A stretch of 64,000 nt of DNA from Natrinema salinisoli (GTDB lineage Archaea; Halobacteriota; Halobacteria; Halobacteriales; Natrialbaceae): the NCBI RefSeq assembly GCF_020405205.1, contig NZ_CP084469.1, positions 558,001 to 622,000 on the forward strand. The letters are read 5' to 3'. The notes below the pieces were generated by a model that was not told the origin of the DNA, searched no databases, and saw nothing but the letters and a program-made list of their open reading frames with translations. A program made the position numbers and the translations under genes. How positions within the stretch are numbered: position 1 is the first letter of the stretch; each line of letters starts with the position of its first letter. Of this stretch, positions 6,879 through 23,755 are shown in pieces.

Positions 6879-7970
6879 TCAGTCTTCGGTCTCGGTCGGC
6901 AGCTTGTTCGTGGGTTCGTACGTCACGTTTTCGGAGACCGTTCGGCGGTTCTGTTCGCCGATCCGATCGGCGACCTCGCCGACGACGTCCTCGAGGTGAC
7001 TCTGGACCTCGCTGTCGTCGTCCTTGACGAGTGCGCCCTCGCTGCCGTCGGCCCCGAAGTCGGGGTGGATCGGAATTCGACCCAGCAGCGGCACGTCGTA
7101 CTTGTCGACGATGGTGTCCGCGCCGCCGGTCCCGAACAGCCCGTGCTGGTCGCCACAGGACGGGCAGACGAACGAGCTCATGTTCTCGACCACGCCCAGT
7201 ACCGGGGTGTCGTGTTTGTTGAACATCTGAATCCCCTTTCTGGTGTCGTCTAACGCCATCTCCTGGGGCGTCGTGACGACGACCGATCCGGTCACCGGCA
7301 TCGACTGCAGCAGGTTCAGCGTCGCGTCGCCGGTCCCCGGCGGCAGGTCTACGATGAGGTAGTCGAGCCGACCCCACTCGACGCCCTCGAGGAACTTCAT
7401 CATGAACTTGTTGACCATCGGCCCGCGCAGGATCGCGGGGTCGTCGTCGTCCTCCATCATCATGCCCATGCTGATGATGCGGACGCCGTCCGAGCGGGGC
7501 GGCACGATCTCCTCGTTCGGCGTGACGCCGGGATCGCTCTCGGGAGGGAGTATCTGCGGGACGTTGGGACCGTGAATGTCGGCGTCGAGCAATCCGACGT
7601 TCGCGCCGCGCTTGTCGAGTCCGGCAGCGAGATTCGCCGCGACGGTCGTTTTCCCGACGCCGCCCTTCCCGGAGGAGACGGCGATGACGTTCCGAACGCG
7701 CGGGAGGACGTCCTCGTCGAAGCCGTGGTCCTCGCCGACGTGTGCCCGCAGGTCGGCCTCGAGACCGGCCTCCTGAATGACCTCGCGGATGCGGTTCCCC
7801 AGTTCCAGCTCCGAGGGCGCGTACGGCGCGTTAAACGCGAGCGAGATCCGGGCCGTTTCGTCGTCGATCGTGACGTCGTTGACCAGTCCCAGCGAGATGA
7901 TGTCGTCGCCGAGCTCCGGATCCTCGACCCCCTCGAGTTTGATTTCGAGCTCGTGTTCTGTGATGCTCAT
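6879..7970 (-). CDS. Mrp/ApbC-family iron-sulfur cluster carrier ATPase
   Basis: A 363-residue protein. Residues 1-80 form a MIP18/DUF59 domain; a deviant Walker A loop GKGGVGKTT lies at residues 101-109, with Switch/Walker B motifs LLDADIHGPN and IVDLPPGTGD after it. A CPSCG motif in the C-terminal part is the CxxC that binds a bridging [4Fe-4S] cluster in Mrp/Nbp35 proteins. The role in the family is assembly and transfer of Fe-S clusters to apo-proteins in the cytoplasm. Iron-sulfur respiratory genes lie about 150 bases upstream on the same strand, but a distinct intergenic gap argues for its own promoter. Confidence 0.95.
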   Translation of the reverse strand: MSITEHELEIKLEGVEDPELGDDIISLGLVNDVTIDDETARISLAFNAPYAPSELELGNRIREVIQEAGLEADLRAHVGEDHGFDEDVLPRVRNVIAVSSGKGGVGKTTVAANLAAGLDKRGANVGLLDADIHGPNVPQILPPESDPGVTPNEEIVPPRSDGVRIISMGMMMEDDDDPAILRGPMVNKFMMKFLEGVEWGRLDYLIVDLPPGTGDATLNLLQSMPVTGSVVVTTPQEMALDDTRKGIQMFNKHDTPVLGVVENMSSFVCPSCGDQHGLFGTGGADTIVDKYDVPLLGRIPIHPDFGADGSEGALVKDDDSEVQSHLEDVVGEVADRIGEQNRRTVSENVTYEPTNKLPTETED

Positions 7971-8114: not shown

Positions 8115-8426
8115 TTACGGCGGGCCGACGGCGCTGAACGGCTCCGGTGGGCCGCCATAGAAGACGATGCCGATCAGGACGGTCAGGATGAACATCCCGA
8201 CCCACATCGACGTCGTCAGACCGACGAGGTAGCCCACGCCGAGCAGTCCGGACTTCGTGTCGCGGGGTTCACCGAGGAACCAGGCCGCGAGCATGATGTA
8301 GACCGGAACCAGGATGACGGCGAAGATGATCCAGGTCCCCTCGTTGGCGAATCCGGTGAAGCCGGCGGTACCGTCGTAGCCGTGGTAGAGCAGTTCCAAC
8401 GGAACGGTTGTCAGTGATGCACTCAT
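8115..8426 (-). CDS. Small membrane subunit of the FeS/NrfD complex
   Basis: A 103-residue protein with two clear hydrophobic segments (residues about 30-52 and 65-92) and short acidic ends. Its ATG overlaps the stop of the NrfD-type gene by four bases (ATGA), so it is the third gene of that operon. I do not recognise a named family. By position it is probably an accessory membrane subunit that stabilises the NrfD anchor. It has no visible cofactor-binding motif. Confidence 0.8.
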   Translation of the reverse strand: MSASLTTVPLELLYHGYDGTAGFTGFANEGTWIIFAVILVPVYIMLAAWFLGEPRDTKSGLLGVGYLVGLTTSMWVGMFILTVLIGIVFYGGPPEPFSAVGPP

Positions 8427-9775
8427 GCTTCCACCTCCGGTTCGGTCGCTTCCTCACTGTGCTCGTGGTCGCCGCGCAGGTGTTCGATCGCGTGGAGTTC
8501 GACCACCGGGACGAGCTTCGAGAGGTTGAGGAATAAAAGTGCAACCAGCGCAGTCGTTCCGACGAGCGAGAGCCACTCGATCGCGCTCGGGAAGTAGGTC
8601 CCGGGCGTGTTGGCGTAGATGTCGAACGTCGGGTGCAGGAACCCTTCGACGACGAAGAGGATCTTCTCGGTCAGGGTCCCGGTGAGGATGATGCCGCTGG
8701 CGAGGAGCGCTCGCTTCTTGCTGAACAGGGCCGGACGGATCCCCTGCAGGAAGATGTACACGAGCGTGCCGAAGATCATCGTCATCGCAACCTGGTAGAC
8801 CGGGTGGGCGATCTTCGCCTCGATCGCGACCGCCTTGTTGGTCGGTCCGAGGAAGACGCCGTTGATGATCGTCTGGAGCTGGAACCACAGGAACAGCAGG
8901 GTGAAGAACCCGAGCCACAGGAGCAGCCCGCGGAAGATGTCGTCAGTGATGATGTGGTCCCAGTCGTAGGCGCGACGGAACGCATAGGAGATAATCATGA
9001 TGCCGCTGATCGCCGACATCAGCGCGATGCTCAGGAACATCGGCCCCTGAATCGCGCCGGTCCAGCCGGGCATCGCCGGCAGGAGCGCGAACAGCCACGG
9101 GATGACGCCACCGTGGAGCAAGAGCGGGGCCATGATGATGACTGCGGCGGCGAGCCACCAGACCATCCGATCGATGACCTGGTCTTCCTTCTTGGTGTAA
9201 CCGATCGTCATGATCTTGTAGACCGGCTCGAACATGTCCGGCAGATCGTCGCGCAGCCGGTTGACGTCGTAGCGCAGCGTCAGGCCGAGATAGGTCGCCG
9301 ACAGCACGAAATAGGCCGTGATGACGGTCACGTCCCACACCAGCGGCGAGTTGTTGACCGTGATGTGGTAGTGGCCGATGACGCTCGTGACCATCCGGTC
9401 CGGACGGCCCATGTGGACCAGAATGTAGAAGCCGGCGGCGGAGAGGCCACCGATCGTGGTCATCTCCGCGAGTCGGGCGACCGGCATGTACCGGTCCATG
9501 CCGAGCAGGCGGACGGCGGCCGAGAGGATGATGCCGCCGTGTGCGACACCGACCCACCAGATGAACGCGCCGATGTACAGTCCCCACGTCGAGCCGCCAC
9601 CGCTCCCCCAGTCGCCGAGGCCGGTAACGATCAGCCCCTGCTGAAGCTGGTAGGCCCAGGCGACGAGGAACGCGACGAGTCCCAGTGCTGCGGCCCCGTA
9701 CAAGATGAAATATTTACTCGTGAGCGTGTTGATCGGGCGGAGGATGTCCGCCTCGGTTGGCTCCTTCGTGCTCAT
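8423..9775 (-). CDS. NrfD/PsrC-family membrane quinone-interacting subunit
   Basis: A 450-residue polytopic protein with about ten hydrophobic segments, matching the NrfD/PsrC/DmsC-like family. These heme-free membrane anchors pass electrons between quinones and a partner Fe-S protein. It overlaps the downstream small membrane gene and the upstream ferredoxin gene by four bases each, so subunits are translationally coupled. Its C-terminus is acidic. In this organism the quinone is probably menaquinone, as men genes lie in the same window. No molybdopterin or other catalytic subunit is adjacent. Confidence 0.93.
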   Translation of the reverse strand: MSTKEPTEADILRPINTLTSKYFILYGAAALGLVAFLVAWAYQLQQGLIVTGLGDWGSGGGSTWGLYIGAFIWWVGVAHGGIILSAAVRLLGMDRYMPVARLAEMTTIGGLSAAGFYILVHMGRPDRMVTSVIGHYHITVNNSPLVWDVTVITAYFVLSATYLGLTLRYDVNRLRDDLPDMFEPVYKIMTIGYTKKEDQVIDRMVWWLAAAVIIMAPLLLHGGVIPWLFALLPAMPGWTGAIQGPMFLSIALMSAISGIMIISYAFRRAYDWDHIITDDIFRGLLLWLGFFTLLFLWFQLQTIINGVFLGPTNKAVAIEAKIAHPVYQVAMTMIFGTLVYIFLQGIRPALFSKKRALLASGIILTGTLTEKILFVVEGFLHPTFDIYANTPGTYFPSAIEWLSLVGTTALVALLFLNLSKLVPVVELHAIEHLRGDHEHSEEATEPEVEA

Positions 9776-11436
9776 AGCGACACCCCGTCGATGCCGCCGA
9801 CGGTCTCGTTATCGAGAGCCTCCTGCCGCTCGTCAAGCAGATCGACGTCCTCGTACTTGGTCGGTCCCTCGACCTGGTGGGCTTCCGGTCCGGGCTCCTG
9901 CCCGAGGTAAGTGACGTTCGGGTTCGTTCCGATGTCCTCGAGTAGCTGGAACGAACTCGGATCGCCCGTGTACTGTTCGAGGCGGAACTGCGCGTCCTGC
10001 TCGCTGCCCTCGCCGAGTTCCAGCGCCTCGAGGGCCGCTTCGCTCTCGAGGTCGACGTACTGCTCGAAGGCCTCGACGGACGCGACGATCTCCTGTTCGT
10101 TCCGGAGAATGCTGTTGTTCTCCTCGTCGCCGGGCTCGGTACCCTCGCTGACGATTTCGATCGACTTCATGATCGCGAGGATGCTCTCGGTGAGACCGTC
10201 GAGCGCCTCGATCGCGGTCTCGAGGTCGTCGCCGTCGCTGAGGGCGCTGTTGATCTGGTCCGGCGACGGAGCGGTTTTGGTGCTTTCGATGCTGTTCGTC
10301 AGGTGAACGATCGCGCGACTCTTGACCGGGTGCTCGCGGTGCTGGGACGGGTCGCTCCGCTCGTCTTTGACGTTCCCGAACTGGATCGCGCCCGGCGGAC
10401 AGGCGGTCTCACAGGCGGACGTCCCGACCTTTTCTTCTCCCTGTTTGCCGTCCTGCATGGACGGACACATCGTACACTTGCTCATGACGCCGCGAGGTGC
10501 GCGGCTGTCGACCCATCGCTCGCCGTACTCGTACTCCGCGTGGGTGATCTGGTCGGGGTTCTCCGGATCCTCGTTCCCGTCGATGTCCTCGTAGTCCACG
10601 CTGGGCTCGTCCCACTGGAAGTAGTTGACGCCGTAGGGACAGGCGACCTGACAGTACCGACAGCCGATACAGACGTCGTAGTCGGTCAGGACGAGACCGT
10701 CCTTGTCGCGAGTGTGACGGGCCGTCGTCGGACAGACCTTCTCGCAGGGAGCGTCCGTGCAGTGCTGGCACGGTCGCACGAGCATGTTGAAGTCACTCCC
10801 CATGTTGAAGTCGGTGTAGACGTCGGTGTTGCCGTCTTCTCCCGGCCCACCGTGAAGTTCGTCCTCCCAGGCCATGACGTACATCCAGTTGACGCCCTCG
10901 TCGAGGTCGTTCTCCTGCGTACAGGCCGTCATGCACGTCAGACAGCCGTCACAGCGCTCGAGGTCGATCGTCATCCCCCACTGGGTATCGCGTTCTTCGG
11001 TCGTCTCCTGGCGGGGTTCGTTGTGTCCCCCTTCAGCGGCGATGTTCTCTTCGGGTCCGTCGCTGGCGGTCCCGAAGGCACCGAGCCCGACGGCCGCCGC
11101 GCCGACGCCCATCTTCTTCATCGTCTCGCGACGGGTCTCGTCCCCGTCGCCGTCGAAGGCACCGAGCATGTTGGAGACGGTTCCGCTCGCCTCCTCCTGT
11201 GCCGCCTCGTAGGCCTCCTTCGTCGGGCGCTCGTCCTCGCCGAACTCTTCCATCACGTCCTCGTGATAGCGTTCGTGGAATTCGGCTTCGGAGAGTTCGC
11301 CCTTCGTGACCCGCATCGCGTCCTGGGCCATTTCCATACCGAGATCGCTGTCGTACTCGGTATCGTCGAGCATCGTCTCGAGTTCGTCCTCCCACTCGTC
11401 CCCGAGCGGGTGGAATGATTCATCGTCCGTACTCAT
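9772..11436 (-). CDS. Four-cluster ferredoxin subunit (NrfC/PsrB/DmsB type) with internal Tat-like motif
   Basis: A 554-residue Fe-S protein. Four Cys groups typical of DmsB/PsrB/NrfC are present: CDGCLTCMTAC (from residue 162), CQHCTDAPCEKVC, CIGCRYCQVAC and CTMCPS followed by CETACPPG. The first ~100 residues are an acidic extension, followed by TRRETMKKMG and an Ala/Gly hydrophobic run at residues 101-125 that resembles a twin-arginine signal placed internally. The C-terminal 150 residues are an acidic extension. It heads the three-gene operon (four-base overlap). A CGAATATGTTCG element lies about 155 bases upstream. It should transfer electrons between the NrfD subunit and an unidentified partner. 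Confidence 0.93.
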   Translation of the reverse strand: MSTDDESFHPLGDEWEDELETMLDDTEYDSDLGMEMAQDAMRVTKGELSEAEFHERYHEDVMEEFGEDERPTKEAYEAAQEEASGTVSNMLGAFDGDGDETRRETMKKMGVGAAAVGLGAFGTASDGPEENIAAEGGHNEPRQETTEERDTQWGMTIDLERCDGCLTCMTACTQENDLDEGVNWMYVMAWEDELHGGPGEDGNTDVYTDFNMGSDFNMLVRPCQHCTDAPCEKVCPTTARHTRDKDGLVLTDYDVCIGCRYCQVACPYGVNYFQWDEPSVDYEDIDGNEDPENPDQITHAEYEYGERWVDSRAPRGVMSKCTMCPSMQDGKQGEEKVGTSACETACPPGAIQFGNVKDERSDPSQHREHPVKSRAIVHLTNSIESTKTAPSPDQINSALSDGDDLETAIEALDGLTESILAIMKSIEIVSEGTEPGDEENNSILRNEQEIVASVEAFEQYVDLESEAALEALELGEGSEQDAQFRLEQYTGDPSSFQLLEDIGTNPNVTYLGQEPGPEAHQVEGPTKYEDVDLLDERQEALDNETVGGIDGVSL

Positions 11437-11590: not shown

Positions 11591-11602
11591 CGAATATGTT
11601 CG
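11591..11602. promoter_or_regulatory. CGAAC-N2-GTTCG-type palindrome upstream of the FeS/NrfD operon
   Basis: CGAATATGTTCG is one base off the perfect palindrome CGAACATGTTCG found at 12723. It sits between the end of the HTH_10 regulator gene and the start of the iron-sulfur gene, about 155 bases upstream of the latter. It is a candidate operator for the adjacent regulator. Confidence 0.5.
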
Positions 11603-11668: not shown

Positions 11669-12343
11669 TTAAGTACGTGCGAGCTCCTCCTCGAGCGCCT
11701 CTTCGCCGTCGAGGCTCGGGAGATCTTCGACGAATCGCTTGATGATCGCTTCCTCGGCGCGGTGAAGCGTCTCGCTACAGGTCGACTTGGCGATATCCAG
11801 GTGGTCGGCCAGTTCGGTCAGCGAGGACTGGCGCGGCGTATCGTAGTACCCTTCGTCGACGGCCGCGGCGACCACCTCGAGCTGGCGCTCCGAGAGGAGT
11901 TGGCTCTCGTGGAGCCGCTCGCGGACGTGTTCGATCCGGTACTGCAGGCCGAAGTGCTCGAGTTGTTCGGCGAGTTCGGCGAGTCGCTCTCGGGAGCCCG
12001 TGACCTCGATCGACGCCTCGCCGTCCTGGATCTCGACCGGGAGTTCGATCGGCATTCCCGACTCTCGGGAGGAGAACAGCAGGAGCGGTGCCGTCGTCTC
12101 GAAGTGGACCGTCGCTTCGTTGTCGCTCCACTGGGCGAGCGTGATTTCGGTGAGCTGGGGGTGGTCGTTCATCGCGTCCACCACTTCGGGGACGACCGGA
12201 CCGGCGATCCGAACGAGGGCGAAACCGGACTCCGACCCGGGGACGGCCGCGAGGACCCGAAAGGTCGCCTCGGGGTAGTCCGTCGATATCTGTTGGATCC
12301 AGACCTCTTCCGGCATCGTGAGGGACAGGGTTGCTTGGGCCAT
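11669..12343 (-). CDS. HTH_10 (Bat/DmsR-type) transcriptional regulator
   Basis: A 224-residue protein whose C-terminal ~60 residues carry the HTH_10 bacterio-opsin-activator DNA-binding domain (SSLTELADHLDIAKSTCSE with flanking helices). The N-terminal ~150 residues form an alpha/beta sensor-like part without Cys clusters. Family members include Bat and the anaerobic-respiration regulators DmsR and NarO. It is divergent from the first DUF2249 gene, and the shared 126-base promoter region carries three CGAAC-type palindromes. Its own promoter looks like TATATAG near 12366-12372, with one palindrome upstream and one between box and start, consistent with autoregulation. Likely targets are the FeS/NrfD operon and the DUF2249 genes. 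Confidence 0.9.
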   Translation of the reverse strand: MAQATLSLTMPEEVWIQQISTDYPEATFRVLAAVPGSESGFALVRIAGPVVPEVVDAMNDHPQLTEITLAQWSDNEATVHFETTAPLLLFSSRESGMPIELPVEIQDGEASIEVTGSRERLAELAEQLEHFGLQYRIEHVRERLHESQLLSERQLEVVAAAVDEGYYDTPRQSSLTELADHLDIAKSTCSETLHRAEEAIIKRFVEDLPSLDGEEALEEELART

Positions 12344-12381: not shown

Positions 12382-12393
12382 CGAATATGTTCG
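12382..12393. promoter_or_regulatory. CGAATATGTTCG element in divergent promoter region
   Basis: This is identical to the copy at 11591-11602 and lies just upstream of the regulator's TATA-like box, in a position typical of an archaeal activator. It is about 77-88 bases before the first DUF2249 gene on the other strand. Confidence 0.55.
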
Positions 12394-12425: not shown

Positions 12426-12437
12426 GACGAACACGTT
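12426..12437. promoter_or_regulatory. CGAACACGTTCG element before the first DUF2249 gene
   Basis: It has perfect 5-base arms CGAAC/GTTCG with a 2-base spacer, 33-44 bases upstream of the ATG at 12470. Part of another half site (CGAACG) follows at 12440. Confidence 0.55.
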
Positions 12438-12469
12438 CGCCCGAACGTCCAATCGCTCGTGAATCGAAG

Positions 12470-12706
12470 ATGGATTCGATGGCAACCGAATCCACCGAAC
12501 GAACGCTCGACGTCAGAGAAATCGACGGTCCCCCGTTCGACGACATCATGGCCGCACTGGCGGACCTCGAACCCGACCAGCGACTGCGATTGATCGCCCC
12601 GTTCGAGCCGGAACCCCTTTACGAAGTGCTCGACGACCGCGGGTTCGTCCACGAGAGCGAGGAACGCGACGGCGGTGTCTGGCACGTGCTCATCGAACAC
12701 GCGTAA
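12470..12706 (+). CDS. DUF2249-domain protein 1
   Basis: A 78-residue single-domain protein. The DUF2249 core is recognisable: LDVREIDGPP at the N-terminus, FEPEPLYEVL in the middle and RGFVHESEERDGGVWHV at the end. A second possible ATG is at 12479. DUF2249 has a ferredoxin-like alpha/beta fold and often occurs near nitrite and nitric-oxide reduction genes or fused to hemerythrin-like domains; its biochemical role is not settled. In this copy the usual His-Glu before Pro (HEP) is replaced by PFEPEP, so the putative ligand His is missing. Confidence 0.88.
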   Translation: MDSMATESTERTLDVREIDGPPFDDIMAALADLEPDQRLRLIAPFEPEPLYEVLDDRGFVHESEERDGGVWHVLIEHA

Positions 12707-12722
12707 CGATCCGAATCGATCT

Positions 12723-12734
12723 CGAACATGTTCG
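12723..12734. promoter_or_regulatory. Perfect palindrome CGAACATGTTCG before the second DUF2249 gene
   Basis: All 12 bases are self-complementary. It lies 41-52 bases upstream of the ATG at 12775, in the 68-base gap between two DUF2249 genes, so the second gene probably has its own regulated promoter. It is the best match to the element repeated through this island. Confidence 0.6.
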
Positions 12735-12774
12735 TACAAAAGTCGATGCGGGGCTCGCTCCGACTACGAATTGC

Positions 12775-13008
12775 ATGACACGACTCGACGTCAGGGACAT
12801 TCCACCGGTGAACCGCCATCCGAAGATCCACGACGAATTCGACGCGCTCGAGCCGGGCGAGTCGCTGACGATCGTCAACGACCACGAGCCCAAGCCGTTG
12901 TTCTACGAGTTCGAGGCCGAAGTTGAGAGCTTCGACGCCGACGGCTACGAGGTCGAACAGGTCGCGCCCGACGAGTTCGTCGCGACGTTCCCGAAAGTAG
13001 ACGCATAG
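12775..13008 (+). CDS. DUF2249-domain protein 2
   Basis: A 77-residue protein starting MTRLDVRDIPPVNRH, with the central NDHEPKPLFYEF motif fully conserved for the family and YEVEQVAPDEFVATF near the end. It is the most canonical of the three copies. The divergence between copies is large, so the duplication is old. Function is not known; context with NirK and terminal oxidase genes suggests a role linked to nitrogen oxides or redox sensing. Confidence 0.9.
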   Translation: MTRLDVRDIPPVNRHPKIHDEFDALEPGESLTIVNDHEPKPLFYEFEAEVESFDADGYEVEQVAPDEFVATFPKVDA

Positions 13009-13057
13009 CGTCCAGGACGAGGACGCCTCGTCGCGTCTCGCACAGTCGGACTACGGC

Positions 13058-13069
13058 CGAACACGTACG
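13058..13069. promoter_or_regulatory. Degenerate CGAAC-N2-GTACG element before the third DUF2249 gene
   Basis: CGAACACGTACG differs by one base from the CGAAC-N2-GTTCG form and lies 39-50 bases before the ATG at 13108, the same spacing as for the other two DUF2249 genes. Confidence 0.45.
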
Positions 13070-13107
13070 GGGAGAAAGATAGCTACCGCGGAGCCGAATC
13101 AGCACGT

Positions 13108-13371
13108 ATGTCATCACCCACCGCCGTCGTCGACCGCACCGATGCACCGCGCGATCGGCCGCGGGAGACCCTCGACGTTCGATCGCTCGGGCCGCCGAAC
13201 CCCCTCCAGCAGACCCTCGAGTTGCTCGTCGAACTGCCCGACGAGACGGTGCTGGTCCAGCGCAACGATCGCGTTCCCCAGTTTCTGTTCCCGAAACTGG
13301 ACGATCGGGGCTATCGCTACGAGACGGTCGAGCGGGACGACGACGTCGTGACCGTCATCTGGCGTGACTAG
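13108..13371 (+). CDS. DUF2249-domain protein 3
   Basis: An 87-residue protein with an extra N-terminal ~20 residues before ETLDVRSLGPPNP. The central motif is altered to NDRVPQFLFP, so His and Glu of the HEP signature are gone, while the end RGYRYETVERDDDVVTV is conserved. It is followed 87 bases later by the heme synthase fusion on the same strand. Confidence 0.87.
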   Translation: MSSPTAVVDRTDAPRDRPRETLDVRSLGPPNPLQQTLELLVELPDETVLVQRNDRVPQFLFPKLDDRGYRYETVERDDDVVTVIWRD

Positions 13372-13458: not shown

Positions 13459-14916
13459 ATGATAGATATCACAGACCGACGACGATTTGCGGACCTCCTT
13501 GCAACGACGACCGTCGCAGCGTACGTTCTCGTCGCACTCGGGACCGCGGTCTCGACGACCGATAGCGCGACGAACTGTTCGAGGTTCCTGCGGTGTTCGT
13601 CCGATCCGGCGTTCCTCTCGCTTTCCGGCGAGGTCCTGCTCTTCTGGGGCCACCGTCTCGCGGCCCTCGTCACCGGCATCCTCGTCGTCGCGTCCGGACT
13701 CGCCGTCAGGCGAACCGCTGTCGATCGTCGCGTGGCCCGGCTCGTCGGCTGTGTCGTCGTCCTCTTTCCCGTCCAGGTCGCGATCGGAGCCGCTATCCTC
13801 GTCGGGAGCCCCGCCATCGCGAGTACGGTTCACCTCGCACTCGCGATGCCCATCTTCGCTTGCCTCCTCGTCGCGCTCGTCGGGACGCTCGAGGAGAACC
13901 CCCGCGAGGAGATACCCCCGAACGGGGACACGGTCGCCTCGAGCGCGGGGAACCAGTCGGAACCCGTTTCGGCGGCCAACCACGACGATATCGAGGGGAC
14001 GGCGAGATCGAACGAGCGACCGAAGGGATCGTTCGCCCGGCTCCGGCGGACGGGCGGCGCGTACCTGACGCTCACCAAGCCGCGGCTGATGTGGCTGCTC
14101 TGTCTCGTCGCACTCGCGGGGATGGGGTTGGCGACGCTCACCGGCGCGCCGCTCGAACCGACGACTGCGATCGCGACGCTCGCCGGCGGCGTCCTCGCCA
14201 TCGGCGCGAGCGGAACGTTCAATCACGTTTACGAACGCGACCGCGATCGGCGGATGAACCGAACGCACGACCGGCCGCTGGTCCACGAGCTCGTTCCCGC
14301 CCGGAACGCCTTCGCGTTCGGGCTCGCTCTCGTGGTGACGTCGATGATCGTGCTCGTGACGTGGGTGAACGCGCTGGCAGCGGCGCTCACCTTCGCGGCG
14401 ATCGTCTACTACGCCGTCCTCTACACGGTCCTGTTGAAACCCAACACCGCCTGGAACACGGTTCTCGGCGGCGGTGCCGGGGCACTCCCTGCAGTTATCG
14501 GGTGGGCCGCCGTCACCGGAACCGTCGGCGCGCCCGGGCTCGCCCTCGCGGCGGTGATCTTCCTGTGGACCCCCGCACACTTCTACAGCCTCGCGATCGC
14601 GTTTCGGGACGATTACGCGCGCGGCGGCTTTCCGATGTACCCCGTCGTCGAAGGCGTCCCGGCGGCGCGTCGACACGTCGCGTTCTACCTGGGTGCGACG
14701 TTGCTGGCCGCGAGCGTTCTCGGGTGGATTGCCGGACTGGGCTGGGTTTACGCGGTCACGTCCATCGCGCTGGGTAGCGTCTTCCTGCGGTCGGTGATCC
14801 GCCAGTACCGCACGCCGACCGACGAGGTCGCGCTCCGCTCGTTCTACGTCTCGAACTACTACCTCGGAGCGATTCTCCTCGCGATCGTCCTCGAGACGCT
14901 CGTCGTCGCCACCTGA
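13459..14916 (+). CDS. ctaB: Fused CtaA-half / CtaB heme O synthase
   Basis: A 485-residue fusion. Residues about 10-140 hold four hydrophobic segments like one half of CtaA/Cox15 heme A synthase, with a Cys pair in the first external loop (NCSRFLRC) and a His in FWGHR. A hydrophilic linker (about 145-190) follows. The rest is a UbiA-type prenyltransferase with Asp-rich motifs NHVYERDRDRRMNRT and FRDDYARGGFPM, as in protoheme IX farnesyltransferase (CtaB), which makes heme O in the membrane. Fusions of this type are known in haloarchaea. It lies just before the oxidase operon it presumably serves. Whether the half CtaA oxidises heme O to heme A alone is unclear. Confidence 0.92.
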   Translation: MIDITDRRRFADLLATTTVAAYVLVALGTAVSTTDSATNCSRFLRCSSDPAFLSLSGEVLLFWGHRLAALVTGILVVASGLAVRRTAVDRRVARLVGCVVVLFPVQVAIGAAILVGSPAIASTVHLALAMPIFACLLVALVGTLEENPREEIPPNGDTVASSAGNQSEPVSAANHDDIEGTARSNERPKGSFARLRRTGGAYLTLTKPRLMWLLCLVALAGMGLATLTGAPLEPTTAIATLAGGVLAIGASGTFNHVYERDRDRRMNRTHDRPLVHELVPARNAFAFGLALVVTSMIVLVTWVNALAAALTFAAIVYYAVLYTVLLKPNTAWNTVLGGGAGALPAVIGWAAVTGTVGAPGLALAAVIFLWTPAHFYSLAIAFRDDYARGGFPMYPVVEGVPAARRHVAFYLGATLLAASVLGWIAGLGWVYAVTSIALGSVFLRSVIRQYRTPTDEVALRSFYVSNYYLGAILLAIVLETLVVAT

Positions 14917-15185: not shown

Positions 15186-15728
15186 ATGACGTCACCGATC
15201 AAACCCCCGGACGGAAACTGGTGGGATCAACCGGTCAACAGACGCGAATCTATCTGGCTCGGGCTCGGGGTCGGCTGGTCGCTCATCCTCTTCGGCTGGA
15301 TGAGTGCCTGGACGCGCGTGGGCGACCAGAACCCCATCGGCGAGACGTTCCGGATCGATGCCGAGGACTACCGCGAGAAGCTGTCCGACTACAAGGAACG
15401 GGCGACCGAGACCGACGACGGCCTCGTCCCGCCGGATCGAGACGTGTACCTGCAAGCGATGCGCTTCCAGTGGGACGGCGCGCCGGTCGTGCTCGAAACG
15501 GGGACGGAGTACGACATTCACCTGAACTCCTTCGACGTTCAGCACGGCTTTTCCCTCCGACCGGAGGACGCCCTCAGCAAACAGATCAACCTGCAGGTGC
15601 TGCCGGGCTACGAGTGGGTTGTCCCGATGACCTTCGACGAACCCGGGACCTACCACATCATCTGTAACGAGTTCTGCGGCCAGGGGCACAGGAGTATGCA
15701 CGGCACAATCGTCGTGGAGGAGGGATAA
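15186..15728 (+). CDS. cbaB: ba3-type cytochrome oxidase subunit II (CuA)
   Basis: A 180-residue protein: N-terminal membrane anchor at residues ~23-42 and an extracellular cupredoxin domain. The binuclear CuA ligands are all present: His120 (FDVQH), Cys160, Glu162, Cys164, His168 and Met171 in the sequence CNEFCGQGHRSM. It accepts electrons from a halocyanin-like carrier and passes them to subunit I. Length fits the short ba3 form. It is preceded by cbaD and followed two bases later by cbaA. Confidence 0.95.
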   Translation: MTSPIKPPDGNWWDQPVNRRESIWLGLGVGWSLILFGWMSAWTRVGDQNPIGETFRIDAEDYREKLSDYKERATETDDGLVPPDRDVYLQAMRFQWDGAPVVLETGTEYDIHLNSFDVQHGFSLRPEDALSKQINLQVLPGYEWVVPMTFDEPGTYHIICNEFCGQGHRSMHGTIVVEEG

Positions 15729-15730
15729 CG

Positions 15731-17476
15731 ATGGCACACACGCTCGACGTTCTCGGCCTGTTCGACAACGAGTATCGCGACGACGGCTTCCGGACCTGTT
15801 CCGTGACGGGACTCGAGGTCCACCGCTCCGTCGACAACTACGTCAAACTGTTCGGCCTCACCGCAGTCGTCGCCCTGCTGTTCGGCGGCATCTTCGCCTT
15901 TACCGTCGCGATGACCCGCTGGGAAGTGATCGGGTTGCTCGAGCCCGCCGACTTCTACACGCACCTCAGCATGCACGCGTGGAACCTGCTGATCTTCTGG
16001 ATGGTGTTCATGGAGATCGCCATCCTCTACGTCGGCGGCCCGATGGTGCTCGGCAGACGGCTCCCGATCACGACGGTCGCGAAGGCGGGATGGGCCGTCA
16101 TGGTCGGGGGGGCCGTACTGGTCAACTACGCTATCTGGACCACCGAACCCCCCAACGAGGCACCGCTGTTGACCGCCTACGTCCCGATGCCCGTCTCACC
16201 GTTGTTCTACGCGGGCGCGATCGTCTTCATCCTGGGCACCGTCGTCGCGGCGCTGCCCTTCTTCGTGACGATGTGGTACGAGAAGCGCGAGAATCCGGGG
16301 AAGACGCTCCCGCTCGTCAGCTTCGCCGCGTTCGTCACGTCGATCATCGCCGTCGAGGCGCTGGTCGGCGGCCTGTTCGCGTTCGTTCCCACCCTGTTCT
16401 GGCGACTCGAGCTGATCGAGTGGTGGGACGCGGCCTGGTACCGCCAGATGTACTGGATCATCGGCCACGGGACCCAGCAGATCAACCTCGTGGCGATGAT
16501 TGCTGTCTGGTACTTCCTGACCCACGTCGTCGCCGGCGCAGAGGTCGTCAGCGAGAAAGTCTCGCGGACGGCCTTCATTCTCTACCTCTTCTTCATCAAC
16601 CTCGGGGCGGCACACCACCTGCTGTCCGATCCCGCGGTGTCGACCGGCTGGCGGCTCTGGAACACGTCTTATGCGTTCTACGGGGCGACGTTCGCGAGTC
16701 TGATCCACGCGTTCGCCATCCCGGCGGGGATCGAGGCCGGGCGGCGCAAGCGCGGGAAAGGCGGCGGCCTCTTCGGCTGGCTGACGTCCGCCCCCTGGTC
16801 GAACCCGGTGTTCTCCTCGACGATCTTCTCGATCATCCTCTTCGGATTCCTCGGCGGGATCACGGGCGTCATGATGGGGCAGCTCCAGCTCAACATGACC
16901 TGGCACAACACGTTCGCGACGGTCGGCCACTTCCACGCCACGGTCGTCCTCGGGACGACGGTCGCGTTCATGGGCCTGGCCTTCTTCGTGATCCGGACGA
17001 TGTTCATGCGCCAGTACATCTCCGAACGGCTCGCGTCCATCCAGCCGTTCTTCTACTCGGCCGCGATGGGTGTCGCCGTCCTGATGATGATGTACGTCGG
17101 CATTCTCTACGGCGTCCCGCGCCGAACCGCCGAAGTCGTCGAGAACATCCCCGGGACCGAGTTCAGCCTCTCGGCCGCGGCGCCGCTGTTCGCTATCTTC
17201 GGGATCTTCGCCCTCCTCGCAATCGCGGGCGGGGTCCTCTTCGTCGTCGTGGCGGTCGGCTCGCTCGTCTTCGGCGACCGGGTCGAGAACGGGGACGACA
17301 ACGCGGATCTCGTCGCCGACGGTGGTCTCGCGATGGCCCAGGACCCGGACGATCCCGTCCACGCCTACGAAATGCGCGGCACGTTCGTCCTCTGTCTGGT
17401 CTTCCTCGCCGCGTTCGCGATAACCTATCTGCTGAACTGGTATCTGCTGACCCAGCTCTGGTCGATCGGCGCCTGA
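15731..17476 (+). CDS. cbaA: ba3-type cytochrome oxidase subunit I
   Basis: A 581-residue heme-copper oxidase subunit I with 12 or more membrane segments. Ligand motifs: HLSMHAW for the low-spin heme, WIIGHGTQ for a CuB His, a later AAHHLL pair for CuB, and VGHFHATV holding the heme His ligands. The divergence from A-type enzymes fits the B family (ba3). It reduces oxygen to water and pumps protons with high oxygen affinity. It is in an operon with cbaD and cbaB; the heme synthase gene and a copper ATPase are close by. Confidence 0.95.
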   Translation: MAHTLDVLGLFDNEYRDDGFRTCSVTGLEVHRSVDNYVKLFGLTAVVALLFGGIFAFTVAMTRWEVIGLLEPADFYTHLSMHAWNLLIFWMVFMEIAILYVGGPMVLGRRLPITTVAKAGWAVMVGGAVLVNYAIWTTEPPNEAPLLTAYVPMPVSPLFYAGAIVFILGTVVAALPFFVTMWYEKRENPGKTLPLVSFAAFVTSIIAVEALVGGLFAFVPTLFWRLELIEWWDAAWYRQMYWIIGHGTQQINLVAMIAVWYFLTHVVAGAEVVSEKVSRTAFILYLFFINLGAAHHLLSDPAVSTGWRLWNTSYAFYGATFASLIHAFAIPAGIEAGRRKRGKGGGLFGWLTSAPWSNPVFSSTIFSIILFGFLGGITGVMMGQLQLNMTWHNTFATVGHFHATVVLGTTVAFMGLAFFVIRTMFMRQYISERLASIQPFFYSAAMGVAVLMMMYVGILYGVPRRTAEVVENIPGTEFSLSAAAPLFAIFGIFALLAIAGGVLFVVVAVGSLVFGDRVENGDDNADLVADGGLAMAQDPDDPVHAYEMRGTFVLCLVFLAAFAITYLLNWYLLTQLWSIGA

Positions 17477-18827: not shown

Positions 18828-21332
18828 TCACCGCTCGTCGTCGAGTACCGCCCGCGAGGAGTTGACGACGACGATGGCGCTGCTGGTCGCCATCGCAACG
18901 GCCGCGAAAAGCGGGTTTATCAGTCCCATCGCGGCCAGCGGGATCGCGACGGCGTTGTACAGCAGCGCCCAGCAGACGTTCTCGCGAATGCGCCGCCGGG
19001 TGGCCTCCGCGAGATCGAACACCGAACGGACGGCGCGGAGGTCACTCGAGGTGACGACCGCGTCGGCGGCGTCGGTCGCGCGGGCGGTCCCGTCACCGAG
19101 CGCGATCCCGACGTCCGCCGCGGCCAGCGCAGGCGCGTCGTTCGTCCCGTCGCCGACCATCGCGGTCACGCCCTCGCTGGAGAGTCGCCGAACGGTCTCG
19201 ACTTTCCCGTCCGGCGGGACGCCCGCGAAGACGCGATCGACCGAGGGATGGTCACGAAACGTCTCGGTCGCGGCCGCGTCGTCGCCCGTCAGTACGACCA
19301 CCTCACGGTCGGCGAACGATTCGAGGACATCGCTCCACTCGGTGCGCGTCCGATCGCCGACGACGGCGACGGCCCTCGCCCGCCCGCCGTAGCCGACGAC
19401 CGCGGGGAGTCGACCCCGATCTCGAGCATCGTCGATAGCCGCCTCGAGCTCGGCCGGCACCGGGCCGATCAGCCGCTCGACGAGCCCCGGCGTGCCGACG
19501 ACTACCCGCTCACCGTCTTGCCTCTCGTCGCCGCGATCCGGGCCGATGGCGGACGACACTGCTCCCTCGACCTCGACCGTCGCGCTGACGCCCTCGCCGG
19601 GATGCCGGTCGAAGTCACGCACTTCGATTCCGGCGCTCGACTCGTCGTCCGTCTCCGACTCGAGGCGGCCGCCGTCGGACGCGACGCGTGCGTCGGTCTC
19701 CGCTCCGTCCGATCCGTCCGCTTTTTTCGCCGCGGCGCGGGCGACGATGGCATCGGCAACGGGGTGTTCCGAACGGCGCTCGACGGCCGCGGCGAGATCG
19801 ACCGCCTCGTCGTCTCCGTGGACCTCGAGGACCGTCATCTCGCCCGCCGTCAGCGTCCCCGTCTTGTCGAAGACGACCGTCTCGACGGTCGCTGCCGACT
19901 CGAACACCGTCGCGTTCGCGACGACGATCCCGCGCTCCAGGGCGTCGCGCAGCCCCGAAGCGACCGCTAGCGGCGTCGCCAGCCCCATCGCACAGGGACA
20001 GGAGACCACGAGTACCGTCAGCCCCGTGAGTACCGCGTCTCCCACGGCCGTTCCCGTGGTGAGGCGCCAGCCCGTCACGACGAGCGCGAGCGTCAGCACG
20101 AACGGAACGAAGATCGTCGCGAGTCTGTCCGCCAGTCGCTGGACGCCCGGCGTCGCGCTCTGAATCTCCCACATGAGCGTCGCGATGTGGTCGAGCGTGC
20201 TCTCGGCGTCCTCGCCGACCTCGACGACGAGCGCGCTGTCGGTCACGATCGACCCGCCGACGACCCGATCCCCTGGTCGTTTCGTGACCGGCAACGACTC
20301 GCCGGTGAGGACGGACTCGTCGACGGCCGCCGTTCCCTCGAGGACCGCGCCGTCGATCGGAACCCGTTCGCCGGGCCTGACGAGAACCTCGTCGCCCGCG
20401 ACGAGCTGATCGACCGGAACCGTTTCCGCCCCCGCCGACGTTCGGCGGGTCGCCTCGCGAACCCGTGCGGCGGTGACGTCGGCGAGCAGATCTGTCGCCC
20501 GGCGTTTGACCCGGCGCTCGTAGTAGGTTCCGAGCGAGACGATCAGGATCACGGCGACGGTCACGTCGTAGTAGAGGTGCGTACTCCCCATCGCCAGCGC
20601 GACGGTACTGTACGCGTACGCCGAGACGGCTGCGATCGCGATCAACAAGTCCATGTTCGGTCGTCTCACTCGGAGACTGACGTACGCCCCCCGCAGGACC
20701 GGATAGCCGGTGTAGAACAACACGCCGCTCGTCAACACCCCGATCATCGCCATCGGCAAGTAGACGCCGACGGGTGAGGTCGCGTCGACGGTCAGAATTC
20801 CCGTCTCGATCCCGACGTAGCTCGGGTAGAGGTAGAACAGGTACCACGGCATGACGAGCATCGCCAGGAACCCGCCGGCCAGCAGCCGCTGGACCAGTTC
20901 CTCGTCGGCGCGGGCGGTCCCGCCGTCGTCATCGCGGAACCGGGCCTCGTAGCCGTACCCGGAGAGCGCCTCGGGGAGCTCCGCCTCGTCCAGCCGGTCC
21001 GGGTCGTAGACGACGCGGACAGTGTCGGTCGCGTAACTCGCCTCGACCGTCCGGATTCCGGGCTCCCGTTCGCCGAGCAGGGAAAGGAACCCCTCGCAGG
21101 TCGAACAGTGCATCCCCTCGACCGCGAGAAACGTCTCCTCGCTCCCATCGGGCACCTCGCGATCACCGCGTTCCGTCGCGCGGTCGACGACCGCCTCCCG
21201 GTCGAGATCGTCGACGTCCGCAAGGCTCGCGCTCACCTCGAGACAGCCGCGACAACAGAAGGTTCCCTCGACGTCCGCCGCCGTCACCGGTCGGTCGGGG
21301 ATCGGGAGTCCACAGAGCGAGCAGGAACTCAT
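18828..21332 (-). CDS. CcoI/FixI-like copper-transporting P1B-type ATPase
   Basis: About 834 residues from the ATG complementary to 21330-21332 ([10 protein letters not shown]); an upstream frame adds 31 unlikely residues. The N-terminus has a Cys-rich metal-binding segment (Cys4, Cys7, then FCCRGC at 25-30), followed by an HMA domain with GMHCSTC. Later come the channel motif SCPCAMGL, phosphorylation motif DKTGT and hinge [10 protein letters not shown]. The extra N-terminal Cys segment and CPC fit the CcoI/FixI (CopA2) branch, which exports Cu(I) slowly for assembly of cytochrome oxidase and other external copper enzymes. Its place between ba3 oxidase and NirK genes agrees with that role. 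Confidence 0.93.
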
Positions 21333-21515
21333 TCCACGATCGATTGTCGTCCACGCGGCGGGTAGCCCTACCCCCGAACCCGTTCGGGGTGCTATTCTCG
21401 AGCGACGGAATCGATCCGGATTCACCGACGGTGCGATCGCCAGCGACGGCCCGCGATCACTGCGGGTCGCAAGCGACAGTCCGAATCTCGACTCGAGGAA
21501 CCGAATACCACGCCG

Positions 21516-22433
21516 TCACTCCCGATCGATGTGCTCGAGGAGCAACGACGTCAACCGCGCCGGTGTCTCGCGTGGCACCCAGTGGCTCGTCTCCGGCAGT
21601 AGCTCGAGTCGACTCTCCTCACACCGGTCCGCGCTGTCGACGGCCAGCGCGGGGACGAGTGCGGTGTCGTCTTCTCCCCAGACGATGAGTGTCGGGACAT
21701 CGACCCGCTCGGATCGCGGAATCGGCGGATACCGAGCGGCTGCCCGATACCAGTTGAGCATTCCAGTGAGTGCCCCGTCCCGACTCCAGGCACGACGATA
21801 GCGAGCCAGCTCGTCGTCGCGAAACGTCTCCGGTGCAGCCGTTTCGCGTAGCCCTCGCTCGAGGATGCGGTACTCGTCGTACTGCAAGACGCGCTCGGGT
21901 AGCCACGGAAGCTGAAAGAAGACGGCGTACAGGCTCCGGGACAGTTGCTCGGGGTTTGCGGTGACCTGCCGTAGATAGGCGGTTGGGTGCGGGGCGTTGA
22001 CGACGGCGAGCCGGTCGACCGCCCCCGGGTGTCGGAGCCCGAGGTCCCAGGCGACCATGCCACCCCAGTCGTGTCCGACGACGTGTGCGACCTCACGGTT
22101 CTCCGTCGCGATCAGGTCGACGACGTCTCGAGCGGATTCCCGGACCCGGTACGATTTCACTCCACCGGGTTTTTCGCTCAGGTTGTATCCGCGCAGGTCG
22201 GGAATTAATACGCGATACCCGGCCTCGACGAGCGGCGGAATCTGGGCACGCCAGGCGTACCAGAACTCGGGAAAGCCGTGGAGAAGGACGATCAGCGGGT
22301 TCGTTTCGTCACCGGCGGCGACGGTGTGTAACTCGATCCCGTTGACGGTTCGTCGGTGCGAGTCAAGCCCGACCGACGAAACGACCGCCTCGACGTCCGA
22401 ACCAGCGATCGTTGCTCGCGGGTCCGTTCTCAT
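21516..22433 (-). CDS. Alpha/beta hydrolase, epoxide hydrolase or haloacid dehalogenase-like
   Basis: About 305 residues from ATG at 22433 (MRTDPRATIAG); an alternative ATG at 22460 adds nine residues. Fold motifs: oxyanion-hole HGFPEFWYAW, nucleophile elbow GHDWGG with Asp as nucleophile, VWGEDDTAL with the acid, and SHWVP with the catalytic His. Asp nucleophile plus HGFPE is typical of soluble epoxide hydrolases and fluoroacetate dehalogenases. The substrate is unknown. It lies between the copper ATPase and nirK and has no obvious link to them. Confidence 0.87.
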   Translation of the reverse strand: MRTDPRATIAGSDVEAVVSSVGLDSHRRTVNGIELHTVAAGDETNPLIVLLHGFPEFWYAWRAQIPPLVEAGYRVLIPDLRGYNLSEKPGGVKSYRVRESARDVVDLIATENREVAHVVGHDWGGMVAWDLGLRHPGAVDRLAVVNAPHPTAYLRQVTANPEQLSRSLYAVFFQLPWLPERVLQYDEYRILERGLRETAAPETFRDDELARYRRAWSRDGALTGMLNWYRAAARYPPIPRSERVDVPTLIVWGEDDTALVPALAVDSADRCEESRLELLPETSHWVPRETPARLTSLLLEHIDRE

Positions 22434-22649
22434 GTTTCGGACTGGACCGCGAGACGGCATACCGGTTGTGGACGACTACCAGCAAGAAACGCAGCGACGA
22501 TCGGGGGCGAGCGGGCGACGGTGGTCAGAACCCGCTCCGATCACGATGGGCTGCGAGAGGGTACTTAACTGCCCACGGTATAGCGGGATCGGCCGATCCG
22601 ATTACTATCTGCCGAGAATCATCTCTATACTTGATCATACGTCCACCGT

Positions 22650-22661
22650 TATCTATAGATA
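22650..22661. promoter_or_regulatory. Perfect palindrome TATCTATAGATA before nirK
   Basis: A 12-base self-complementary sequence six to seventeen bases before the nirK ATG. A TATA-like CTATAC at 22625-22630 would place transcription initiation near this palindrome, so a bound protein there could repress nirK. Confidence 0.4.
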
Positions 22662-22666
22662 GGACG

Positions 22667-23755
22667 ATGACCGAAACCCAATTCAACCGACGGCAGGTGG
22701 TGCAGGCGATCGGGGCGACCGGCGCGCTGGCGGTGGCCGGCTGTCTCGATGGCGATACGCAGGGGAACAGCGCGGAAACCGACGAGCCGGCGGGCGAGGA
22801 GGGACTGCCGGAAGCGAAGGCGGTCGACGTCGACCGGATCGCGCGGGACCCGACGGACGTTCCCGCGCCGGTCGATTGGGACGAGCCGCGCGAACACGAC
22901 ATCACGATCGAGACGGTTCGGCAGACGGCCGAGATCGAACCCGGGGTCACGTTCGAGTACATGACCTTCGAGGGGCAGGTTCCCGGCCCGATGGTCCGCG
23001 TGCGCCGCGGCGATCGGGTGAACCTCACGTTCGATGTCCCGGAAGACCTGAACGCGGCCGCGCACAACATGGACTTCCACGCGGTCTACGGGCCCGGCGG
23101 CGGGGCCGACGCGACCACGATCGCGCCCGGCGACGACCCGACCCAGATCAGCTTCACGGCCGACTACGCGGGGGTGTTCATCTACCACTGTGCGATCCCG
23201 AACATGGACCAGCACATCAGCAGCGGCATGTTCGGTTCGATCCTCGTCGAGCCCGAAGAGGGCCTCCCCGAGGTCGACCACGAGTACTACCTCGGCCAGC
23301 ACGAGATCTACACCGACGGCGACGTCGGCGAGGAGGGCCACCACAGCTTCGACTTCGACGCCATGCTCGAGGAATCGCCGACCTACGTCGTGTTCAACGG
23401 CCAGGCCTACGGCTTCGCCCCCGACGGCGGCCAGCCGATGCAGGCCAACACCGGCGAAACTGCGCGGGTGTACTTCGCCAACGGCGGGCCGAACCTGCTG
23501 AGCTCGCTCCACCCCATCGGGAACGTCTGGAGCCGCTACTACCGCGACGGCGACCTCCTGAGCGAACCCGACCTGAACATCGAGACCGCGCCCGTCGCCC
23601 CCGGGACGACCACCGCGGCCGAAATGGAGTTCCCCGTCCCCGGCCCGGTCAAGATCGTCGACCACGCGCTGACGCGCGCCGCTCGCCGGGGCGCACTCGG
23701 CGTCGTCAACGTCGAGGGCGAACCGACCGAAGACCTCTACGACGAGGATCCGTGA
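22667..23755 (+). CDS. nirK: Copper-containing nitrite reductase
   Basis: 362 residues from ATG 22667; a longer frame from 22412 adds 85 non-homologous residues. The N-terminus is a lipoprotein-type signal (RRQVVQAIGATGALAVAGC, Cys26), so the enzyme is external. Two cupredoxin domains carry every key residue: type 1 copper His133, Cys175, His183, Met188; type 2 copper His138, His174, His333 (VDH); catalytic Asp136 and His282 (SLHPIG). It reduces nitrite to nitric oxide in denitrification, with halocyanin as probable donor. No nitric oxide reductase is in the window. It is a stand-alone gene near the oxidase, copper ATPase and DUF2249 genes. Confidence 0.96.
   Translation: MTETQFNRRQVVQAIGATGALAVAGCLDGDTQGNSAETDEPAGEEGLPEAKAVDVDRIARDPTDVPAPVDWDEPREHDITIETVRQTAEIEPGVTFEYMTFEGQVPGPMVRVRRGDRVNLTFDVPEDLNAAAHNMDFHAVYGPGGGADATTIAPGDDPTQISFTADYAGVFIYHCAIPNMDQHISSGMFGSILVEPEEGLPEVDHEYYLGQHEIYTDGDVGEEGHHSFDFDAMLEESPTYVVFNGQAYGFAPDGGQPMQANTGETARVYFANGGPNLLSSLHPIGNVWSRYYRDGDLLSEPDLNIETAPVAPGTTTAAEMEFPVPGPVKIVDHALTRAARRGALGVVNVEGEPTEDLYDEDP

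Follow-up and report, generated by a model that had tools for sequence, protein, structure and literature searches.

The three consecutive DUF2249 genes in the window (the whole stretch of 64,000 nucleotides of Natrinema salinisoli DNA analyzed here; contig NZ_CP084469.1, positions 558,001 to 622,000) appear to encode the counterparts of DrpA and of a DrpB that is split into two proteins and lacks DUF1858, an assignment that is well supported by sequence comparison. We lean towards regarding the trio as the Thermus DrpA-DrpB system in a haloarchaeal form with split genes, with an inferred sensing/maturation complex and a membrane partner. In kind, this system is already known, from DrpAB and from the DUF2249 proteins of Haloferax mediterranei. 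According to the accessible portions of the respective sources, denitrifying haloarchaea strongly induce their DUF2249 genes (PMC11218638), and in Thermus, DUF2249 is tied to an unexplained nitrate-control phenotype (PMC6282519). Recognition of DrpA, split DrpB and the membrane partner in archaea, Thermus and rhizobia would turn two puzzles into one defined four-gene set. In a literature search that mostly did not extend to subscription papers, we found no earlier domain-by-domain match to DrpB, no split form and no co-occurrence figures for the membrane partner.

The DUF2249 trio and its genomic neighborhood

D1 (12470..12706, 78 aa), D2 (12775..13008, 77 aa) and D3 (13108..13371, 87 aa) are consecutive single-domain genes on the forward strand, as the sequence-only reading had described them, and all three products passed the Pfam cut-off of 29.5 bits for PF10006 (DUF2249), with 68.6, 84.4 and 52.1 bits, respectively. 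D2, the DrpA-like member, contains both class-conserved His residues in the motifs RHP...NDHEPKPL and, among named matches, is closest to a protein of Natrinema salsiterrestre (100% identity across 72 residues). The observation that only the middle copy keeps the NDHEPKPL core stands, with the correction that D1 and D3 lack both His, that of RHP as well as that of HEP, and that D1 retains the E-P-x-P-L surrounding the lost one. In D1 (GPPF...PFEPEPL), the apparent counterpart of the first DUF2249 domain of DrpB, PF replaces RH and FEP replaces HEP; D3 (GPPNPL...NDRVPQFL), the apparent counterpart of the second, is characterized by PPxPL and NDRxPQ. None of the three proteins matched anti-phage models, and a sequence search for a solved DUF2249 structure returned none at E<=1.

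Divergently from D1, on the reverse strand, lies a gene for an HTH_10 regulator (11669..12343), which we take, partly after a published account (PMC11218638), to be NarO/DmsR-like. It is followed, on the same strand, by genes for a DsrO/DmsB-like 4Fe-4S protein with a Ferredoxin_N domain (9772..11436), an NrfD-type membrane subunit (8423..9775) and an Mrp-type Fe-S carrier with a PF01883 domain (6879..7970). Downstream of D3, the forward strand encodes a heme O synthase (CtaB) with a COX15-like N-terminal part (13459..14916), the cupredoxin subunit II of eNOR (15186..15728), a heme-copper subunit I (15731..17476) and the copper nitrite reductase NirK (22412..23755; TIGR02376 above the cut-off, match at 22817-23749), and the reverse strand a heavy-metal (copper-type) P-type ATPase (18828..21425). 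Subunit I contains GHGTQQ, with Gln four residues past the CuB-type His; Gln at the position of the active-site Tyr is the mark of eNOR in the accessible part of PMC8756737 (Table A4).

The interval 8115-11436 combines the Fe-S, NrfD and small membrane genes, with no molybdopterin subunit recognized alongside. In Natrinema, Halopiger, Natronorubrum and Halovivax, this set has been kept next to the trio.

The genome contains eight DUF2249 domains above the cut-off, namely, three in the trio, four in a single protein and one in an Mrp fusion. The four-domain protein (G000:C1:4119173-4120135; L040; 280 bits) lacks both His in its first domain and keeps them in the other three; its neighbors have no Pfam match or are an iron-type alcohol dehydrogenase, and similar multi-domain proteins are present in several other genomes. 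The gene in which an Mrp-type Fe-S carrier is fused to DUF2249 (L041 9760-11037) adjoins nar-like genes, and in one relative (L101) the His has been lost.

Three classes across the haloarchaea

The trio had been taken for locally diverged paralogs; instead, the sequence relationships indicate that D1, D2 and D3 are three ancient classes. Signature residues were scored in 205 domains, taken from the window and from 125 loci. His occupies the first place in 67/67 and the second in 66/67 D2 domains, counts that are partly circular because the class labels were assigned by motif; D1 has Phe at both places (62/62), and D3 has Leu at the first (61/65) and Arg at the second (65/65). When 15 motif columns were masked, the nearest relative with less than 85% identity still carried the same label for 62/62 D1, 65/67 D2 and 65/65 D3, although only 57 of the 62 D1 domains came together on the same side of a branch. 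Recent tandem duplication can be ruled out because the classes are common to haloarchaeal families and extend to bacteria.

The distribution of the classes was surveyed in 116 order-level haloarchaeal genomes with a completeness of at least 90%. D1 was found in 61 genomes (of 63 listed, leaving out a 36-residue piece in G039 and a D3 cross-hit in G105), D3 in 65 (of 66 listed, leaving out a 27-residue piece in G029), NirK in 60, and D2 in at least 67, the latter being the number among the matches listed (to E ~4e-19), from which multi-domain and D1-like proteins were left out and weak D2 sequences, such as those of G036 and G096, may be missing. D1 and D3 occur together in 60 genomes, D1 alone in 1, D3 alone in 5, and neither in 50. 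As regards the survey for conserved triplets suggested in the earlier reading, all three classes are present in at least 59 of the 116 genomes; the members, however, are often unlinked, with D1 and D2 less than 1 kb apart in just 22 of the 59 genomes that have both (among the matches listed), so that linkage does not account for the co-occurrence.

The proposed connection to nirK and nitric oxide genes was borne out as far as the denitrification setting is concerned (the eNOR motif, NirK and the promoter motif described below), but not as a specific tie to nirK: trio and NirK are both found in 49 genomes, the trio only in 10, NirK only in 11 and neither in 46 (D2 being counted among the matches listed), and hence 10 of the 59 trios lack NirK. 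For eNOR, the numbers are 22 genomes, 20 of them with the trio. The Fisher values for these associations are tiny, yet overstated because the genomes are related; the contrasts within genera described below are of help here.

Palindromes upstream of the trio genes

The trio genes are preceded by palindromes of the form CGAA-Y-A-Y-GTTCG, which agrees with the published motif CGAAYATDKTYG: CGAATATGTTCG (12382..12393; itself in agreement with that motif) and CGAACACGTTCG (12428..12439) lie 5' of D1, CGAACATGTTCG (12723..12734) 5' of D2, and CGAACACGTACG (13058..13069) 5' of D3. That each gene has its own palindrome holds for D1, with two, and for D2, whereas that of D3 is poorer, with 2 mismatches. 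Another copy of CGAATATGTTCG (11591..11602) separates the regulator from the Fe-S/NrfD genes. Overall, the 64-kb window contains 18 matches with up to 2 mismatches, compared to 4.3 (sd 2.2) in shuffled sequences, none of the 100 shuffles reaching 18. In Haloferax mediterranei, nar, nirK, nor, nos and two of the four DUF2249 genes are reported to be preceded by CGAAYATDKTYG (PMC11218638, accessible part).

Across the surveyed loci, a palindrome with up to 2 mismatches was detected within 160 bp upstream of 56/62 D1, 66/67 D2 and 62/65 D3, compared to 180/1101 control genes, where the distance was measured from called gene starts for the controls and from domain starts for the D genes, and the controls include real denitrification genes. 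The signal is less clear for the membrane partner (19/35 with a match of up to 2 mismatches at no more than 250 bp, compared to 372/1446 of all called genes). For 17/62 D1, 16/67 D2 and 21/65 D3, a divergent HTH_10 gene from the same cluster lies no more than 700 bp away.

Correspondence to DrpA and the two domains of DrpB

We compared the Thermus genes of T. thermophilus SG0.5JP17-16 and T. brockianus with the haloarchaeal classes. Against the class HMMs, domain 1 of T. thermophilus DrpB scored 52.4 bits with the D1 profile, with no D2 or D3 match at E<0.05, domain 2 scored 25.2 bits with the D3 profile versus 10.0 with D1, and DrpA, a single DUF2249 domain marked by the histidines of RHP and HEP/HDP, both of which D2 has, scored 73.1 bits with the D2 profile. 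The respective proteins on a Sinorhizobium plasmid gave 63.6, 38.7 and 46.5 bits with the D1, D3 and D2 profiles, in the same order, and here the DrpB-like protein unites the D1 and D3 domains in one chain without DUF1858. In a tree of 58 domains, built from 74 columns, which is few for that many sequences, D1 grouped with DrpB domain 1 (support 99/93), D3 with DrpB domain 2 (98/93), and all His-less domains together (99/95). D2 and DrpA did not form one clade in the best tree, but a forced single clade was not rejected (p-AU 0.366).

Thermus DrpB consists of DUF1858 and two DUF2249 domains (PMC6282519, accessible part). Among the 116 haloarchaeal genomes, DUF1858 does not score above the cut-off in any; thus, with D1 and D3 encoded by separate genes and this N-terminal domain absent, the haloarchaeal form is a split variant and not DrpB itself. 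In two bacterial MAGs, a single protein combines DUF1858 with D1-like and D3-like domains (66-69 and 61-64 bits). A DrpB-like query retrieved 168 plasmid records, chiefly from rhizobia plus 15 from Thermus, of which 23 matched over at least 80% of the query length. Elsewhere in bacteria, a D1-like gene lies directly 3' of D2 in a Dehalococcoidia MAG, and a Bacteroidetes MAG contains D2, a D1-like piece and NirK together; altogether, among 15 D2-containing loci of bacterial MAGs (L207-L221), 2 have a D1-like gene alongside and none has the membrane partner.

The rhizobial D2/DrpA-like protein (L237 4476-4748; L236 4409-4780) carries a C-terminal Cys-rich tail, CxCCC, which is suggestive of metal binding.

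Predicted fold of D2

An AlphaFold2 model of D2 built from 61 sequences (pLDDT 96.5, pTM 0.83) has a predicted TusA-type fold; the best matches among solved structures are TsuB (Z 10.4, rmsd 1.6, 72 residues aligned), a SirA-like protein (Z 9.3) and TusA (Z 9.3, rmsd 2.3, 71 aligned). Foldseek with the same model gave no match with E under 0.001. By secondary structure, His15 is in helix 1 and His37 in the loop before helix 2, and we read the modeled fold as placing the His sites of D2 in the region of the TusA Cys. The catalytic Cys of TusA is part of a CPxP motif. There is no Cys anywhere in D1, D2 or D3, and against the PF01206 cut-off of 28.6 bits, D1 reached 11.7 and D3 17.4 bits, D2 not being listed.

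A membrane protein that accompanies the trio

In 36 haloarchaeal loci, a membrane protein that belongs to no Pfam family is encoded near the trio genes; in Natronococcus, its gene is divergent from D1-D2-D3. It is present in 64 of the 116 genomes, namely, in all 59 with a complete trio (among the matches listed) and in 5 without one, whereas 52 genomes have neither. In the window's own genome, the gene is outside the window, at 430,152-431,480 of contig 1, about 140 kb away. The protein resembles one from Sinorhizobium, whose gene is flanked by those for the DrpA-like and DrpB-like proteins (2e-17), and a Thermus protein encoded about 1.3 kb downstream of drpB (3e-18), and 14 of the 15 Thermus plasmids with DrpB carry a nearly full-length version. 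Nine genera (g12, g13, g20, g24, g25, g27, g30, g33 and g6) mix genomes with the set, or most of it, and genomes without it, or nearly so. In these genera, the trio and the membrane partner were mostly gained or lost together, with partial sets in G017, G018, G029, G036, G081, G096, G099 and G108; in G018 and G029, D3 is a fragment and both D1 and the membrane partner are absent.

In four more Thermus records, including that of HB8 (NC_006462.1 123797-124189), none of them among the 15 drpB records, the membrane partner is reduced to its last third, beside a PF01883 gene; this may be what is left of a lost module.

For the Natronococcus protein, structure prediction (pLDDT 86.4) gave 12 long helices, and the fold comparison gave Z 36.6 with CcoN (389 residues, rmsd 2.7) and 34.3 with NorB; the membrane partner is therefore predicted to have the heme-copper oxidase/NO-reductase fold. 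A sequence search for a solved structure returned none at E<=1, and the profile-profile alignment with three kinds of heme-copper enzymes was local and weak (probability 8.8), so that the family assignment rests on the predicted fold together with a sub-threshold COX1 match. Active heme-copper oxidases and NO reductases have six conserved metal-ligand His. In the membrane partner, His55 in helix 2 and His189 in helix 6 (L153 numbering) are common to haloarchaea, Thermus and Sinorhizobium, and a third, His341 in helix 10, is replaced by Lys in both bacteria. With only these two His shared across lineages, activity of the protein as an oxidase or NO reductase is unlikely; it may hold one heme. 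Three of the partner proteins gave no match to NnrS (PF05940) at E<=10, whereas a true NnrS used as the control scored 375 bits (Pfam).

Several other genes were observed in this context. A 144-residue Thermus gene product following drpB (L234 12795-13226) shows a weak COX1 match (22.3 bits) and is perhaps a four-helix heme-copper homolog; its gene adjoins a protoglobin gene. A putative radical-SAM-modified peptide of the CGCGG family (TIGR03995), encoded outside the window at G000:C1:429237-429479, is represented in 72 of the 116 genomes, including 57 of the 59 with complete trios (among the matches listed), often adjoining D1 or D3, and TIGR04053/AhbD-like radical SAM proteins accompany it at trio loci. 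Our literature search found no paper naming TIGR03995 or TIGR04053.

A possible mechanism and its alternatives

In the split DrpA-DrpB complex that we favor, D1 and D3 would pair into a His-free receptor, as within one DrpB chain, on which D2 would dock, with its two His binding a ligand, either a metal or a species reacting with it. The three would be anchored or informed by the membrane protein, which probably binds heme but has ceased to reduce NO or O2; it would also explain how DrpB, for whose attachment there was no account, is anchored. Responding to nitrogen oxides or to the redox state, the complex would hold back or free the regulator and would contribute to the production of active N-oxide reductases, a role that DrpAB has in Thermus. 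In line with this, the Thermus drpAB double mutant makes nitrate reductase free of nitrate control and loses most of its activity (PMC6282519, accessible part). Such an arrangement agrees, indirectly, with the suggestion of the sequence-only reading that the His-less copies are partners rather than metal binders, given that the trio behaves as a set and that its two His-less classes, which correspond to the two DrpB domains, are joined in a single chain in bacteria. Several points count against this explanation: the parts are often dispersed, with the partner of the window's trio so far off; D2 and DrpA are not grouped as a supported clade; just 2 of the 15 D2 loci from bacterial MAGs have a D1-like gene and none has the membrane partner; relatedness of the genomes inflates the significance of the co-occurrence; and the phenotypes of mutants were obtained in a different domain of life. 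Moreover, in the accessible part of PMC6282519, Thermus DrpA is reported as periplasmic and DrpB as cytoplasmic, which fits poorly with a simple cytoplasmic D2-D1-D3 complex. A bolder and more tentative proposal is a cross-domain membrane switch, in which a relative of heme-copper oxidases that has lost catalysis would report NO, nitrite or redox state to a TusA-fold set gating both the transcription and the maturation of reductases, one subunit keeping the two ligand His and two His-less ones being fused as DrpB in bacteria and free in haloarchaea.

A less likely reading, with tangible evidence on its side, is that the trio is a complex for cofactor maturation or repair and not a sensor, such that the TusA-fold D2 would carry a metal, an Fe-S part or a heme precursor to N-oxide reductases, with D1 and D3 as adaptors, and the lost signal dependence of drp mutants would be secondary. 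Such a role would suit the predicted fold of D2, the PF01883 Fe-S assembly gene four genes 3' of drpB in T. thermophilus SG0.5JP17-16 and that adjoining the DrpB-like gene in Sinorhizobium, the fusion of Mrp to DUF2249 encoded within the nar-like operon mentioned above, the radical SAM proteins of heme/RiPP type among the neighbors, the Cys-rich tail of rhizobial D2, and the Thermus drpAB double mutant, in which NarG is produced, yet with about a tenth of the activity (PMC6282519, accessible part). However, loss of DrpB leads to constitutive expression from the nar promoters, as reported in the same portion of that source, which is unexpected for a pure maturation factor; the conserved palindromes and the HTH_10 adjacency are compatible with either view. 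We rate sensing plus maturation somewhat above maturation alone.

The shared palindromes and the frequent lack of linkage would also be expected if the three proteins acted alone, in separate steps, and co-occurred through one denitrification regulon, but we consider this improbable because the trio members track one another better than they track NirK (D2 among the matches listed), D1 and D3 are fused in bacteria, and D3 is reduced to fragments in the two genomes mentioned above that lack D1 and the membrane partner. A role confined to the adjacent operon of eNOR and heme O synthase, suggested by the direct neighborhood in the window, N. salsiterrestre and N. pallidum, seems highly improbable: eNOR is found in far fewer genomes than the trio, with 20 in common, and the trio is not beside eNOR in G016 (same genus), N. 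gelatinilyticum or Halopiger.

Comparison with known systems

The TusA/SirA/TsuB family (PF01206) resembles the trio in the predicted fold of D2 and in a weak sequence match to D3, and differs from it in the CPxP Cys, absent from the trio, and in that the trio scores are below the family cut-off. Pei et al. (2014) reportedly described 12-helix homologs of heme-copper oxidases with two His (HCOH/NnrS); the membrane partner is alike in the predicted 12-helix fold and the two His common to the lineages, but is not NnrS by Pfam. The same work is cited for a link to DUF2249 in the accessible text of PMC11218638. According to that text, H. mediterranei has four DUF2249 proteins, all induced in denitrification, one of which keeps the DrpA histidines; this set shares with the trio the promoter motif CGAAYATDKTYG and bacterioopsin-like regulators. 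In its accessible part, the same source likens these proteins to DrpA only, and the His-less ones are not assigned to DrpB domains.

The closest parallel, as far as the accessible parts of PMC6282519 and PMC7694296 go, is provided by DrpA and DrpB of Thermus thermophilus, where D2 corresponds to DrpA, and D1 and D3 to the DrpB domains, in order. A membrane protein of the predicted heme-copper oxidase-type fold and nitrogen-oxide genes are found nearby in both cases. The difference is that DrpB is a single chain with DUF1858, whereas the haloarchaea have two separate proteins without it.
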